Assembly (NCBI GenBank): GCA_023205875.1
Contig: CP060755.1
Location: 1,705,007-1,769,006 of the forward strand
Length of the DNA stretch: 64,000 nucleotides
Source of the DNA: Chloropicon primus
Lineage: Eukaryota; Chlorophyta; Chloropicophyceae; Chloropicales; Chloropicaceae
Direction: 5' to 3'
Below the pieces are notes generated by a model, which was not told where the DNA came from, made no database searches, and saw only the letters and a program-made list of their open reading frames with translations. Of this stretch, positions 1,265 to 10,063 are shown in pieces; the stretch's first letter is position 1; the number at the start of each line of letters is the position of its first letter. The translations under genes and the position numbers were made by a program.

Positions 1265-3670
1265 TCAGAAGGAAAAATTGCTAAGGCTCGGGGCAGGTTC
1301 CAACGGCTGAATGTCTTCCTTGTTCAGCAAGGGCTGGTCCTCCCCCGTGAGACCTCCAAGGCACTGCTGGGCGTGGCTCGAGTGCTCCGCCATGAACTCC
1401 AGAACTTGGAGCCGGTGCGAAAGGGCCAGCCTCGTCTCCAGAGCCTGGCCCTGGCCCCGAGCAGGAGCCTCCTGCTGCGCGCCCTGGTCCCTTTCGACCT
1501 CCATGGGCTCGACAATCTTGACGCCCCAGACGTCGTCCACGCTGTGCACGGGAAGGGCGTTGGCGTTCGACTTGTTGGCCTTGTTCCTCGAGCTGAGCTC
1601 CTCCAGCGGGGTCAGGAGGCCCCAAGCGTTGTGGATGTTCGAGAGAACGTCAGACCTCTCCACCCCGGAGACTTTGTTGCTCCCTGGGCAGTGCGCGAAG
1701 AACTCGGGGTGGCAGGACATCAGGTCCAGGGCCTCCTCGTCGAACACCCTGAGCTCCTCCCTGCCGCCCTGGGTGGGGCCCTTCTTGACGTTCCCGCTCT
1801 TGAAGGCTTTGGAGTTCACGTGCTTCGAGCTCACGGGGAGCCACTTGACATCCTCCTTGCTCAGGTTGAGCCAAACTTGCTGCTCGGCCATCTTCTCCTC
1901 GTACTGGACCAGGTAGTGGCCCGAGGTGGGCTCAAAGTTCATGATCCGCCCCTGGTAGAACCTCTCTCTCTCGGGCCAGTAGACCGCGACCCTCCAGCCG
2001 AGGGCGTCCATCCCCTGGGGGAGGTACGAGGGCCTGGTCACCGCCGACGAATCGTGGAGCTGCCAGTTGTTCCTCTTCAGGTCCGACCACTCGTGCTTCG
2101 AGTCCACGAAAAGAATCAGGTACTTTTGCCTCGAGGGCGAGAAGGCCACGACCTTGCCGACGAGCTTCTCGTGGCCCCTGTGGATCCTGACGTGCTTGCC
2201 CACCAGGTCCCTCGTGTCCTTCAAGGGCAAGAGCTTCTGGTTGGTCGCCAGGCTCTGGGAGGCTGGCTTCTTGAGAGCCTCCGGGATGGTCTTGTTCAGC
2301 CACTTTGTCCTCTGCTGGTCGAGAACGACCGAGTCGACCTGGCCATTGTCGAACTTGAGCTTGTGCTCGCCGCTGCCCTGGTTGAACCCTATCACCACGC
2401 CCTTGAAGTACTTGTGCTCCTCCGGGGACCACACCCTCAGGCGCCAGCCCACCGCGTCCTTGCCCTGGGGCTTGTCGTGGGCCTCCGCCTTCTGCGCCGC
2501 CTCCGCCGCCGCGAGGGCCTTTGCCGCCGCCTCCGCCTTCCTCGCCGCTATCTCCTTCGCTTTCATGGCCTTGGCCTTGGCCAGCTCCGCCTTCTCCACC
2601 ACGGCCATGTCCTTCTTGTTCGCCTCTCCGACCTCCACCAGCTCCACGGGCAGCTGCAGGGGGGGCGCCAGGCCGACCTGATTGGCCACCGCCTCCTCAA
2701 GGTCGTGGTCCGGCGTCTTCGGGCACTGCACGTTCCTCATGCTGTCATTGCTGTCGTTGTCGCTGCTGTTTCCCGAGACGCACGTGCTGCTGTCCAACTC
2801 CATGGAGCTCGTCGTCACGGTCTCGTTATGGCTGGTCTCCCCCTGGCGACCAGGCTTCGAGGACCTGGCCCTCTTCGTTGTGGGCTGCTTGCCCCCCGGA
2901 CCGACGTGCTGCACGGTGTACTCGGAGTGCACGCTCGAGTCGTTGTTGTTGTTCTGGCAGTCCGCCGCCACCCTCTTGCCCCTCGGGAGGGTCCTCGCCC
3001 CGTGACCCGGGGACCCCCCCTTCTTGTTGCCGCTGCCCTGCTTCACCTTCTGCTTCTTCTTCTGCATCTTCATCGCCCTGTCCTTGGCCTTCTGGGCCTC
3101 TATGTGAGGGTACTTGACGGCCTCGTTCCTCAGCAGCACCAGCTGCTGCTCCCCGTCCTGGTAGGCGATCAGGTGCTTCCCGCTGGGTTTGTCGTACTCC
3201 TTGACCTTCCCCACGTACCACCTCCCCATAGCCGGCCAGTACACCTTGACCTTCCTGCCCACGGCGTCCTTCCCCTTGGGCGACCCGTGGTAGCTCGAGT
3301 TTGGGGCCGCCCCGGGCTTGGGCTGGGTCAGGAACTGGAACTTCTCCCTCGCCAGGTCGACCTCCTGCTGGTCCCCGTCCTCGTACTTGACAAAGTGCTT
3401 CTTGGTCTTGTCCGTGTAGCTATATATCTTGCCCTTGAACCACTGCCCGGGCTTGCGCCAGTACACGGCCACCTTCCTCCCCACGACCTCCGGGCCGAAG
3501 ATGCTCCCCTCCTCGTCCCCCGCCTGCCTCTTCCGCACCGAGTCGCTCGGGGAAGGCTTCTTCTTGCTGCTCAGGAGCTCGTGGACCACGGACTTGTTCC
3601 TGTCCCGCGTCTTCATCCCGTGCGACAGGGGGGCGTCCACTGTCGTCGCCGCTTGGTGGTGCTGGACCAT
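1265..3670 (-). CDS. Protein with five Tudor-like domains
   Basis: 801 residues, intronless. Five copies of a Tudor-like unit are visible at about residues 62-114, 136-187, 405-458, 488-538 and 555-612. Each has the pattern VGRKVxVYWP, a short loop with W/FYxGxV, then KHxVxYxDGxQQ. This is the style of Tudor modules in PDS5, MSH6 and plant chromatin proteins. A basic, low-complexity linker (190-330) and an Ala/Lys/Glu-rich helix (355-397) separate domains two and three. A nuclear, chromatin-associated role is an inference. No enzymatic domain is seen. The start codon is the first ATG of the frame; the region upstream is CpG-rich non-coding DNA. It is convergent with PPIL3. Confidence 0.8.
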   Translation of the reverse strand: MVQHHQAATTVDAPLSHGMKTRDRNKSVVHELLSSKKKPSPSDSVRKRQAGDEEGSIFGPEVVGRKVAVYWRKPGQWFKGKIYSYTDKTKKHFVKYEDGDQQEVDLAREKFQFLTQPKPGAAPNSSYHGSPKGKDAVGRKVKVYWPAMGRWYVGKVKEYDKPSGKHLIAYQDGEQQLVLLRNEAVKYPHIEAQKAKDRAMKMQKKKQKVKQGSGNKKGGSPGHGARTLPRGKRVAADCQNNNNDSSVHSEYTVQHVGPGGKQPTTKRARSSKPGRQGETSHNETVTTSSMELDSSTCVSGNSSDNDSNDSMRNVQCPKTPDHDLEEAVANQVGLAPPLQLPVELVEVGEANKKDMAVVEKAELAKAKAMKAKEIAARKAEAAAKALAAAEAAQKAEAHDKPQGKDAVGWRLRVWSPEEHKYFKGVVIGFNQGSGEHKLKFDNGQVDSVVLDQQRTKWLNKTIPEALKKPASQSLATNQKLLPLKDTRDLVGKHVRIHRGHEKLVGKVVAFSPSRQKYLILFVDSKHEWSDLKRNNWQLHDSSAVTRPSYLPQGMDALGWRVAVYWPERERFYQGRIMNFEPTSGHYLVQYEEKMAEQQVWLNLSKEDVKWLPVSSKHVNSKAFKSGNVKKGPTQGGREELRVFDEEALDLMSCHPEFFAHCPGSNKVSGVERSDVLSNIHNAWGLLTPLEELSSRNKANKSNANALPVHSVDDVWGVKIVEPMEVERDQGAQQEAPARGQGQALETRLALSHRLQVLEFMAEHSSHAQQCLGGLTGEDQPLLNKEDIQPLEPAPSLSNFSF

Positions 3671-4491: not shown

Positions 4492-6083
4492 TCACTCGTC
4501 CTCCTCCTCCACCGGCGCGAGCATCTCCCCCGCGGACATGGTCCTGAGCTGCATCTCGGCCTTGGTCCTGAGCTCCTCGTCGGACAGGGAGTTCCTCCAC
4601 TTCCTGTACCTCACGGCGAGCTTGTCGTAAGGCACGGGGTTGGCCCAGGTGTCCCCGCCCCGCTTGAGGCGGTCCTCCTGGCCCTGGACGAGCACGAGGT
4701 CCTCCCCGAGGACCTGGGCGGCCATGGTCTCCCAGAGCTTCTTGGCCAGGGGGACGTAGAGCATGAAGCCCATGAAGTCCAGGGACATGCGGTACAGGAG
4801 CCTGGTGCCCTGGCCGGCAGGGACGCACACGTGGAGCTGGTGCAGGTGGTTCTCGCAGGCCGCGGCCCGGGCTCCCTCCTCGAGCTTCCCGGGCTCCGCC
4901 AGCCCGATGGTGGAGAGGACCATGCAGGGCGGCTCGAACGACATGTCGATCGGGTAAGGCTCCCAGTTCCCCCCCAGGAGCTTCTGGGTGTTGAACTTGA
5001 CGAGGTCGGGGATGGACCACCCCTTGGCGAAGGTCGCCGTGTGCGTGAAGGGGGCGTGGGCCAGGTCGAGCAGGTTCTCCAGCAGGAGGCCGTGCTCCAC
5101 GGGCACGTCGATCACGAGCTCGGCGTGAATGATGAAGGGGCTCTCCTCGCGGAAGGCCGGGGGTGGCTTGGTCAACCCCGGGAGCTGGTCCGCCGCCGTC
5201 TCGGCGGGCTCCTTGTCGCTCAGCCAGCACCACACCATCCCGTCCCTCTCGAGGGCGGGGAAGGCCCGGCCGTCCTCCTCGCCGCCCACCTGGCGGAGCT
5301 CCAGCCCGCTGGCGGAGCTCGGCGACCTCGACAGGGAGACGCTCACGTCGAAGGCGTCGAACTCGATCGCCTCCCCGCCACGCTCGTCGAGGTTCTTGGA
5401 GAACTCAAGCGGGTACCAGTAGTCCTTGAGCTCCTTGGGCCACCTGAGGTCGGACCTCAGGGCCGAGGTCTTCTTGGTGGACTCCATGTCCACGGCCTCC
5501 GGGATGAAGTTGGCCGTCGACGAGGCCCCCTCGCCCCCGGACCTCTCCGCCATCTCCAGGGACGCCTCCAACGCCTTGCTCCTCTCGTCCACCTCCCTGA
5601 GCTTCCGCAGCTCCTCCTCGATCCTCTGCTCCTGGACGTGGGCCTGCAGGTGCGCCTCGTGGATCTGCTCCTGGAGCAGGCTCATCTCTGCCTGCAGGTC
5701 CTCGATGCTCCGCCCGAGGACGGGGTGCTTGGACGCCGACGAGGACGAGGAGGATTCCTGTGTGTTTGGATCGTGTTGCGCGCGAATGATGATGATCATG
5801 TTGATAATGGTGAAGAAGATCACGAGAGAGAACACAGGGTGTCAGAGTCAGCCCGCTCGCCCGCTTCGACGAAAAAACACGCGCACTCGCTCACCTTGCC
5901 GGTCCTGCCGTACGCCCCCTCCCCCCTGGCCTCCCCGAGCGCCCGCAGGGGTTGAGGCTGTTGTTGGCGAGCCCTCCTCGGGTGAGGTGTCCTCGGTCTG
6001 CCCACCACCGTCGTCGCGCACCTCGCGCCGCTCGCCGTCCCGCCGTGCCCTAGCCCCGCTCCCGACACGACCCTCCCCCTCAT
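4492..6083 (-). CDS. CAO: Chlorophyllide a oxygenase, mononuclear-iron half lacking the Rieske centre
   Basis: Chlorophyll b synthesis. Two exons are inferred: 6083..5895 (63 codons, an Arg/Ala/Gly-rich transit-peptide-like leader) and 5757..4492. They are joined by a 137-base phase-0 intron (GTGAGC..ACACAG). Spliced length is 484 residues. A coiled coil lies at about 80-134. From about 176 the protein aligns with CAO (DYWYPLEFS), and LIHAEL-type sequence leads into PVEHGLLLENLLDLAHAPF. The iron site is D294, H297, H302 with E290. The C-terminus YDKLAVRYRKWRN is typical CAO. Where CAO carries the CxH and CxxH [2Fe-2S] ligands there are only about 26 unrelated residues with no Cys or His. This matches the split CAO described in Micromonas and Ostreococcus, where a separate Rieske protein partners the iron subunit. 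An ATG at 6110 is an alternative start. Confidence 0.88.
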
Positions 6084-6527
6084 GCTTCCCAACAATACCC
6101 ACACCACCAAAGACCGAGGCCGATCGTAACTCGTATCGTCGCAAAGAGGGAACCTAACCCCTCTCCATTCCCCAGTCCAGTATTGTCGTTATCGTTGTCG
6201 TGTTGTGTGTTGTTCCTCGTGTGTGTGTGTGTGTGTTGTTCCTCGTTGTTGTCCTCGGGTCGCGGCGCGGCTGGTCCCTCCCCCCTTTCCCTCTCCTCCT
6301 CCTGGGCTCCGGATCTGCACCAATGAGAATCTCGCTTTCTTCTCGATAAGAAGAAGATCTTGGTGAACTCTCCTGCCGAAAGAAAAAAGACAGAGAAACA
6401 CAAAGGCGCCAAAATATCTTTCGCTCGAACAGGGCTGCCCGGACGACGTGGTGAACCGGAGGAAGGGACACGGAGGAAGGGACACGGAGGAAGGGACACG
6501 GAGGAAGGGACACTTCGGGGTCGAACG
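6084..6527. promoter_or_regulatory. Divergent promoter region between CAO and the PLAT-like gene
   Basis: About 440 bases separating two head-to-head plastid-type genes. It holds a GT run (6220-6236) and four copies of a 14-base unit ending GGAAGGGACA (about 6457-6512), just before the + gene start. No separate gene is seen. Confidence 0.5.
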
Positions 6528-7607
6528 ATGAGGAACTTGAGGAGGAACTTGGGGAGGAACTTGGGGAGGACAGGAAGGAGACGAACAAGGGAGCACTGCT
6601 GCTGCAGGAGGGCGGTGCAGGAGGAGGTCTGCGTCTTCCCGGCCTCCTGGTCCTTGGACCCGAAAGGATCCCAAAGCCGGAGTCCGACGCACGCCGTCAC
6701 GGTGTCGACGGCGGACTTCCGGGGCGCGGAGCTGACCGAGCCTGACGCGGGGATCTGGATCGCTCTGTTCGACGCGGACCGCAAGTGCTGCCTGGCGAAC
6801 GTGCGCCTGCCGGGCCTCCGGTTCGACCGGGGCGCGAGCGAGACCTTCTGGGTGTCGTGCCCCGAGCTCGGGAGGACGGTGGAGAGGGTCTGGATCGGGC
6901 CGGCGGGGGGGTCCTGGCAGCCGGAGGGGATCGCGGTCCAGCGGTGGACGGAGAGGGGCCCCGGGCTGTCCTTCAGCTTCAGGAACGCCTCCGTGCTCGG
7001 GGAGAGGCAGGAGGCGAGCGCGGCGGAGCTCGTGGCCTTTGACGCGGCCGCGGACCGGGGCAGGAGGGAGGCCGCGGCGGTGCGGGACCGGGCGAACTTC
7101 GAAGAGGCGAGGAGGTACATGCTTGGCGCCGACGCCGCCCTGGTGGGCCTAGGCACCGCCCTGCTCTACCTCTCCTCCGGCCGGGTCGACGCCCTGAACT
7201 TTGGGGCCGGGGGCGCGGTGGGGTTCGTCTACCTCTCTCTCCTCTCCAAGTCCGTGGCGTCGATGGGCGCGAGCGAGGGAGAGGGGGGGGGCACGGAGGA
7301 GGAGGAGGAGGAGGACGGGGGGAGCGGGGCCGGTCCACTGAAACTCCTCCCCACCTTCTCCCCGGAGAAGGTCCTGTCCCTCCCCGGGACCCGGCTGCTC
7401 CTGGCCTCCGGCCTCGTGTTCCTGATCGTCCGGCGGCAGCTCGGGGACCTGCACTGGGGGACCGGGCCGCTGGGGAGTCGGGAGGTTCTCCTCACCATCC
7501 TCGAGACGGTGGGGGGCCTGCTGATGTACAAGGTCGCGGTCCTGGGGGTGAGCGCCGTCAACCCGCAAGCCAAGGACGGGGAGGACGCGGAGGGGAGGCG
7601 GTCTTGA
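6528..7607 (+). CDS. PLAT-like domain membrane protein, probably plastid-targeted
   Basis: 359 residues from the chosen ATG. The leader is Arg-rich with two Cys clusters and looks like an organelle transit peptide; an upstream in-frame ATG at 6360 would translate the 14-base repeat array and is unlikely. Residues about 52-150 resemble a PLAT/LH2 beta-sandwich: VTVSTADFRGAELTEPDAGIW, then LRFDRGASETFWVSCPELG. Three or four hydrophobic segments follow: VGLGTALLYL, FGAGGAVGFVYLSLL, LLLASGLVFLIV and LMYKVAVLGV. An acidic Glu-rich loop sits between the second and third. Uncharacterised plastid proteins of plants have a similar PLAT-like plus membrane layout. Function unknown. It is divergent from CAO. 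Confidence 0.65.
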   Translation: MRNLRRNLGRNLGRTGRRRTREHCCCRRAVQEEVCVFPASWSLDPKGSQSRSPTHAVTVSTADFRGAELTEPDAGIWIALFDADRKCCLANVRLPGLRFDRGASETFWVSCPELGRTVERVWIGPAGGSWQPEGIAVQRWTERGPGLSFSFRNASVLGERQEASAAELVAFDAAADRGRREAAAVRDRANFEEARRYMLGADAALVGLGTALLYLSSGRVDALNFGAGGAVGFVYLSLLSKSVASMGASEGEGGGTEEEEEEDGGSGAGPLKLLPTFSPEKVLSLPGTRLLLASGLVFLIVRRQLGDLHWGTGPLGSREVLLTILETVGGLLMYKVAVLGVSAVNPQAKDGEDAEGRRS

Positions 7608-8860: not shown

Positions 8861-10063
8861 ATGAACACGACGACGAGGACGATGAACACGAGCAAGTGCT
8901 GCGGCGGCGGGCCCAGAAGTCTCGTCGTCCGCCAGCAGGTCTCGTCCGCCAGCAGGTGCGCGAGCCACCACCTGAGGACGAGGGCGACCGCGGTGGAGGT
9001 GAGCGGGAAGGCCCAGGGAACCGCGACCGAGGAGCCCCTTCTCCTTCGGGCGGTTAGGGGGGAGGAGGTGTCCAGGCCCCCGGTGTGGATGATGAGGCAG
9101 GCCGGGAGGTACATGAAGTCGTACCAGGAGCTCTGCAAGAAGTACCCGAGCTTCAGGGAGAGGAGCGAGATCCCGGAGCTCAGCATCGAGATCTCCCTGC
9201 AGCCCTGGAAGGTGTACAAGCCGGACGGCGTCATCCTTTTCTCCGACATTCTCACGCCCCTGGAGGGGATGAACATCCCGTTCGACTTCCTCCAGGGCAA
9301 GGGCCCCGTGATCGAGGACCCGATCAGGACGATGGAGCAGGTGGAGAGGGTGTGCAAGCTCGACCCGGCCTCCGCGGTGCCGTTCGTGGGCCAGACCCTC
9401 GAGGCCCTGAAGAAGGAGATCGGGAACGAGAGCACCCTGCTCGGGTTCTGCGGGGCGCCGTACACCCTCGCGTCCTACATCATCGAGGGTGGGTCCAGCA
9501 AGAACTACACCAACATCAAGAAGATGGCCTTCACCCAGCCGGAGGTCCTCCACGCCCTCTGCGGCAAGCTCGCCGAGGGGATGGTCGACTACCTGTCGTA
9601 CCAGGCGGAGTCCGGGGCGCAGTGCGTCCAGATCTTCGACTCGTGGGCGAGCCACCTCTCCCCCTGCGACTTTGAGGTCTTCTCCCTGCCCTACATCAAG
9701 CAGATCGTGAGCGGGGTCAAGGCCAAGCACCCGGACCTGCCCATCATCCTCTACATCAGCGGCGGCGCCGGCATCCTGGAGAGGATGGCGGACACAGGGG
9801 TGGACATCGTGTCCCTGGACACGTCCCTGGACATCACGGACGCCAGGAAGAGGATCAACGACAAGACTGGGATCCAGGGGAACATCGACCCCGCCCTCAT
9901 TCTCGCGGGAAACAAGGAGGCGATCACCAAGAGGGTCCACCAAACCATCGAGCAGGGAAGGGGAACGAAGCACATCGTGAACCTTGGCCACGGAGTCCTT
10001 CCGGGAACCAGCGAGGAGAACGTGGGCTACTTCTTCGACACCGTCAAGGAGTTCAGCTGGTGA
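8861..10063 (+). CDS. UROD: Uroporphyrinogen III decarboxylase, plastid
   Basis: Converts uroporphyrinogen III to coproporphyrinogen III in heme and chlorophyll synthesis. 400 residues, intronless. A Ser/Arg/Thr-rich leader of about 50 residues looks like a chloroplast transit peptide. The enzyme begins near residue 58. Family signatures are [13 protein letters not shown] (73-85), [25 protein letters not shown], and near the C-terminus GNIDP and [10 protein letters not shown]. The invariant Arg pair and the FSD aspartate are present. CAO, four genes to the left, acts later in the same pigment pathway, though nothing suggests co-regulation. Confidence 0.97.

Follow-up and report, generated by a model that had tools for sequence, protein, structure and literature searches.

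The 64-kb stretch of Chloropicon primus DNA analysed here (the window, 64,000 nucleotides in full) carries a gene for a 484-aa protein of the chlorophyllide a oxygenase (CAO) family. According to our analysis, this gene very probably encodes the iron (catalytic) subunit of a two-polypeptide CAO, the Rieske subunit of which is encoded on another chromosome, at a locus termed L001. The assignment is based on the complementary loss of metal ligands in the two proteins, on genome searches that returned no intact CAO, on the recurrence of the same pattern in relatives, and on predicted models that are similar to Rieske-oxygenase alpha chains. A first-pass annotation, made from the letters of the window alone, had interpreted the gene as one subunit of a split CAO and was right in substance, as the partner L001 and complementary relatives were found and chlorophyll b has been reported for the species. 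CAO makes chlorophyll b, which sets the antenna size in green algae and plants.

An iron chain without a Rieske centre

Pfam assigned PaO (2.2e-15) and VanA_C (2.1e-12) domains to the window protein and found no Rieske domain in it. The catalytic domain is of the PaO/VanA_C type and closest to CAO. The spliced 484-aa product differs from the public entry 'chlorophyllide a oxygenase [Chloropicon primus]' (P0001) at a single position (272, I/V), so that the coordinates and the 137-base intron given in the first-pass annotation hold. P0001 was aligned with 46 other CAO-family proteins; it has every iron-site residue (Asn, bridging Asp, two His, and Asp), and the four Rieske ligand positions are gaps in it. 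Since the Rieske CxH/CxxH is absent from the same chain, the window protein is not a complete single-chain CAO. Pfam, alignment and motif scans thus agree with the earlier claim of a complete iron site without Rieske ligands. The Rieske segment had also been described as replaced by unrelated residues. The ligands are indeed absent, but the distance from the WYP motif to the iron motif (118 residues, compared with 168 in P0010, which is the nearest intact CAO, and 146 in P0073) is better described by deletion of the cluster-binding loops, with the remaining Rieske scaffold retained.

An additional exon supplying CxH/CxxH, which the annotation had considered, was not seen. A six-frame scan of the window returned no CxH(8-30)CxxH motif (one divided between two exons would escape it), and contig C2, which carries the window, had no match in a genome-wide Rieske-domain search. 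There is therefore no nearby uncalled exon with an unbroken motif. On the alignment, the motif scan of the window and the genome-wide Rieske search together, we reject a decayed gene or a missed exon.

A probable Rieske-bearing partner in the same genome

The assembly searched comprises 17.58 Mb in 20 contigs, and organelle contigs may fall outside these 20; the genome paper gives 20 chromosomes and 17.40 Mb for C. primus (PMC6731263). Four loci were recovered by the genome-wide Rieske-domain search (L001-L004), and L001 is the sole CAO-like one among them. This locus (G000:C14:417609-419408, plus strand) holds a 600-aa frame with CSHRACPLSLGKVNKDTGCIQCPYH (PF00355, 6.1e-24) and without a DxxHxxxxH iron motif, and thereby provides the Rieske-bearing CAO paralogue that had been predicted to lie elsewhere in the genome. 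P0121 is a near-copy of the L001 product (two residue differences), and both His and the third iron ligand are replaced by other residues in its alignment. Among three relatives, identity amounts to 68-73% in the Rieske part of L001, where all four ligands are conserved, and to 40-49% in the C-terminal part. On visual inspection, L002 and L003 resemble the Rieske proteins of the cytochrome b6f complex and of mitochondria, and L004 encodes a small soluble Rieske-type ferredoxin with a Rieske_4 ferredoxin-like domain (5.2e-12).

Used as queries against the genome, each of the two proteins and the PaO family recovered only the gene itself and no further CAO, and exon-by-exon matching, in which the best candidates were scored, recovered no intact full-length CAO. 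Overall, the genome yielded four Rieske-domain loci and a single PaO-family locus. With only these loci, the exon-by-exon search gave no sign of a pheophorbide a oxygenase, a TIC55 or a PTC52-like Rieske oxygenase, which is no proof of absence.

Distribution of the A domain and the linker

Intact CAO has an A-B-C architecture, and the name of the A domain and its border with B follow this scheme. A profile of the N-terminal regions of 112 CAO sequences having both metal motifs (A/B profile) matches the L001 protein at positions 18-205 (1.5e-40). The window protein, as P0001, is matched at 137-221 only (1.1e-10), and this match corresponds to its coiled coil. This coverage places the A-domain region exclusively on the Rieske chain and the B/linker on both chains. 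The coiled coil, which the first-pass annotation had regarded as an added feature for pairing with the partner, matches the B/linker region of intact CAOs (E-value 5e-11) and is the ordinary CAO linker. On this match, we reject the idea that the coiled coil is a novel device for pairing.

P0121-P0124, that is four of the five Chloropicon-type Rieske relatives, match the A/B profile as L001 does. The fifth, P0175, gives no match; it is a 293-aa piece that begins just upstream of its Rieske motif. At an E-value of 10, the profile matched none of 38 hand-picked Rieske chains taken as Mamiellales-like, a label assigned by inference. The intact P0010 has kept the B/linker, and its A region is without a match. 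The N-terminal domain reportedly destabilises plant CAO upon chlorophyll b accumulation, according to the title of a 2005 paper by Yamasato.

Relatives with the complementary pattern

Homology searches contributed the best 120 of 657 proteins (first search), all 27 (second search) and the best 120 of 180 (third search). Among the 144 proteins from the first two, the first being limited to its best 120, 27 did not match the motif pattern. Four fragments and P0048, whose incomplete model retains part of the domain, were set aside, leaving 22 Rieske-less chains. All eight aligned Chloropicon-type iron chains (P0001-P0003 and P0005-P0009; the alignment did not include P0004) are devoid of Rieske ligands and have kept the iron site. 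Conversely, all five Chloropicon-type Rieske chains (P0121-P0124 and P0175) have Rieske ligands and no iron site, with a C-terminal part that aligns loosely. P0010 contains a complete Rieske motif with PF00355, and its iron domain is 75% identical to that of the window chain. In P0030 and P0042, two of the 22, the Rieske domain is still colinear and the first ligand motif is broken; they are sister to the loop-deleted P0022 and P0041 and are likely intermediates in a separate loss of the Rieske centre.

Three other Rieske-only CAO chains (P0126, P0172 and P0174) match the A/B profile, fall outside the Chloropicon group in the best tree, and possibly represent further split lineages. P0175 (293 aa) is deeply related to the Rieske chain of Chloropicon (100/98) and could belong to the lineage of P0010. 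One scan of viral contigs with P0014, as a possible source of further iron chains, found no relative.

A working model and its alternatives

We posit that both chains would be imported into the plastid and would assemble into a hetero-oligomer of Rieske-oxygenase alpha-type chains. Ferredoxin would reduce the [2Fe-2S] cluster on the Rieske chain, and the electron would pass the subunit interface by way of the iron chain's conserved bridging Asp and reach the mononuclear Fe(II). At this site, two successive oxidations would turn the C7-methyl of chlorophyllide a into the formyl group of chlorophyllide b. A mixed oligomer would be required, and a mixed ring of three could have only one productive Rieske-to-Fe interface, whichever chain is in excess. 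As intact Rieske oxygenases already transfer electrons between neighbouring subunits, placing cluster and iron on separate chains would need no new chemistry.

C. primus RCC15 has a chlorophyll b/a ratio of 0.901 mol/mol, and the ratios of 21 Chloropicophyceae strains range from 0.624 to 1.196, compared with 0.283 in Picocystis salinarum (PMC5656628 Table 2). The joint absence of a Rieske partner and of chlorophyll b, which the first-pass annotation had named as speaking against a split CAO, is accordingly not what was found. Recombinant two-chain CAO of Micromonas produces chlorophyllide b, with a trimer of dimers being suggested (PMC9615114), and in a review model of Arabidopsis CAO, electrons move between subunits, leaving the cluster on one and arriving at the iron on the adjacent one (PMC13297055). 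Taking the pigment ratio, the activity of the Micromonas enzyme and the Arabidopsis model together, a two-chain CAO is therefore the simplest working model. According to Foldseek, the predicted models of both chains resemble whole Rieske-oxygenase alpha chains over the Rieske and catalytic parts; the Rieske chain was represented by P0121.

Several points weigh against this model. The Foldseek TM-scores (template modelling) are modest, at 0.29-0.41 by model length among the rows listed, and residues 303-328 of the iron-chain model, just behind the iron motif, have a predicted local distance difference test (pLDDT) value below 50. The model alignments included intact CAOs, and the Rieske scaffold of the iron chain as well as the catalytic fold of the Rieske chain are perhaps partly imposed. 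The exon-by-exon genome search considered the best candidates only, and an intact CAO in short exons could escape it. Plastid import, pairing, stoichiometry and activity of the Chloropicon chains are predictions from sequence.

Two other explanations were considered. The iron chain might use a different donor, either the soluble Rieske-type ferredoxin of L004 or a plant-type ferredoxin directly, with L001 being a regulator or a relic. The domain encoded by L004 and the lower conservation of the C-terminal part of L001 are in line with this explanation, whereas the conservation of the Rieske part with its four ligands is unexpected for a relic and the model of P0121 resembles a whole alpha chain; we regard it as improbable. 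That the window gene is a decaying paralogue or an assembly or annotation artefact with a lost Rieske segment is more improbable still, to a degree that we hardly consider it. The protein is without a domain that the family normally needs, but the same state, with intact iron motifs, is found in eight further database proteins (P0002-P0009), the public C. primus entry has the same gene model, and the genome searches turned up no other CAO. The eight proteins likewise bear out the first-pass annotation, according to which the gene is not a decayed one.

Origin of the split

After near-copy thinning, 126 rows were left, and a quick tree was built from 122 of them (fragments P0024, P0038, P0068 and P0106 were omitted). 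The Rieske-less label, which in this tree includes the incomplete P0048 and the mislabelled P0117 (it has CFH...CSFH), needs eight changes, at least three of them forced by starred branches. A second tree of 67 rows was restricted to the iron domain, with Rieske columns unused, intact CAOs hand-thinned to 45 and a bootstrap that had not fully settled. It omits P0048, the long branches P0117, P0157, P0178 and P0208, and also P0061 and P0109, which were not flagged as long; the intact CAO P0061 had grouped with P0012-P0014, P0047 and P0054 at 81 in the 122-row tree. In the 67-row tree, nine Chloropicon-type iron chains form their own clade (100/93) with the intact P0010 as sister (99/98). The Rieske-less label amounts to six changes (6-7 in the 5-95% range of bootstrap trees; none of 200 trees with one), and the starred branches alone force at least two. 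One clade of all 22 Rieske-less chains was rejected by the approximately unbiased test (p-AU 3.1e-7). A single origin of the 22 chains is thereby rejected, and the Rieske centre was therefore lost more than once among green-algal CAOs.

On these sequences, it is a fair statement that the Chloropicon loss would be younger than the P0010 branch. The Chloropicon split is likely, not proven, to be independent of the Micromonas split; in this comparison, the presumed Mamiellales-like Rieske chains (inferred label) stood in for the named CAO1/CAO2 of Micromonas and Ostreococcus. A single origin shared with other marine picoalgae, ancient and either inherited or transferred, appears rather unlikely to us. 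It would fit with a clade of the Chloropicon iron chains and P0012-P0014, P0047 and P0054, which was not rejected (p-AU 0.209, group picked after seeing the tree). It would also fit with a Rieske-domain tree (101 rows, 127 columns) in which one origin of 19 iron-less Rieske chains was not rejected (p-AU 0.136), although the iron-less label needs four changes. That tree was thinned of near-copies above 78% identity, a few being kept by choice, and omits P0121, P0201, P0142-P0144, P0191 and the fragment P0215. Against a shared origin stand the position of P0010, the rejection of the 22-chain clade, the p-AU of 0.031 for a clade of the Chloropicon iron chains with P0022, P0030, P0041 and P0042 (likewise chosen post hoc), and the A/B profile, which is present in L001 and four of five relatives and in none of the Mamiellales-like Rieske chains. 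As a joint clade with some Rieske-less chains was not rejected, we do not claim independence from every other split.

We posit, as a proposal that we hold to be evenly balanced, that CAO was split repeatedly and independently in green algae by duplication and complementary loss, in Chloropicophyceae after an A-less, P0010-like intact CAO. The chlorophyll-b-sensing A domain would have been retained by the Rieske chain, and feedback would thus target the subunit that donates electrons rather than the one that performs catalysis.

Gene structure and neighbourhood

The coordinates are listed in Table 1. A uroporphyrinogen decarboxylase (UROD) gene, a tetrapyrrole gene, lies at a distance of about 2.8 kb and is separated from the CAO gene by a single gene; this closeness is possibly due to chance.

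Table 1. Features of the CAO gene and of neighbouring genes, in window positions.
Feature	Position	Strand	Remarks
CAO2-like gene (putative Rieske-less, iron-site subunit of split chlorophyllide a oxygenase, 484 aa)	4492..6083	-	Pfam, splicing, alignment
Exon 1, 63 codons; N-terminus Ala/Arg/Gly-rich, predicted as probable plastid transit peptide	5895..6083	-	Matches public gene model P0001
Intron, 137 bp, GT..AG	5758..5894	-	Splicing yields P0001 save one residue
Exon 2: B/linker coiled coil, loop-deleted Rieske scaffold, complete mononuclear-iron domain	4492..5757	-	
Coiled coil, residues 79-136 (model helix 81-136)	5539..5712	-	Homologous to B/linker of intact CAOs; hand-counted
Rieske remnant, residues 171-235: predicted beta strands, without either metal-binding loop	5242..5436	-	Hand-counted
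Mononuclear-iron domain, residues 274-484 plus stop, with ENLLDLAHAPFTH and LGEDLVLV	4492..5127	-	Hand-counted
Protein between CAO and UROD genes	6360-7607	+	DUF7755 (4.1e-9), sub-threshold CGL160_C match
Uroporphyrinogen decarboxylase	8861-10063	+	PF01208 (7.9e-124)
801-aa protein	1265-3670	-	Tudor-like domains (PF21743) in three stretches

Comparison with known systems

Split CAO is already known as a class, for example from Micromonas, where the Rieske centre and the mononuclear iron are on different chains. Kunugi and colleagues reportedly described MpCAO1 and MpCAO2 of Micromonas pusilla in 2013, in a paper whose title is said to link the split CAO to a new light-harvesting complex. New are the finding of a second chain within one Chloropicon genome, the location of the A-domain region, the correction regarding the coiled coil, and the evidence of repeated Rieske loss. 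No report of a split CAO in Chloropicon was found in the literature searched, with most subscription journals outside it, and the main text of the C. primus genome paper contains neither 'CAO' nor 'chlorophyllide' (PMC6731263).

All six Lhcb proteins of C. primus are reported to be of the core-chlorophyte type, unlike the mamiellophycean Lhcp (PMC6731263), and a split CAO in this genus thus separates the split from the Micromonas-type antenna. If splitting recurred, CAO would represent a series of natural experiments on dividing a two-cofactor enzyme between chains and would also inform on electron transfer between subunits in Rieske oxygenases. A regulatory domain retained on one chain only would offer a clean test of chlorophyll b feedback.

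Like the Chloropicon system, the split CAO of Micromonas pusilla consists of two polypeptide chains (PMC9615114). The Chloropicon iron chain differs from it in the deletion of the cluster-binding loops, the Rieske chain differs from the Mamiellales-like ones in retaining the A-domain region, and Chloropicon belongs to another class. The intact CAO of core chlorophytes and plants has an iron domain, a B/linker and an A-domain region that are homologous to those of the Chloropicon chains, of which the last is found on the partner, but in Chloropicon the catalytic domain has its two metal sites divided between separate chains. P0010, which the tree places closest to the iron chain, likewise differs in its complete Rieske motif. 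Among solved Rieske oxygenases, dicamba monooxygenase and NdmA/NdmB have the overall fold in common with both predicted chains, at 11-22% sequence identity in the alignments, and contain both metal sites within one chain.
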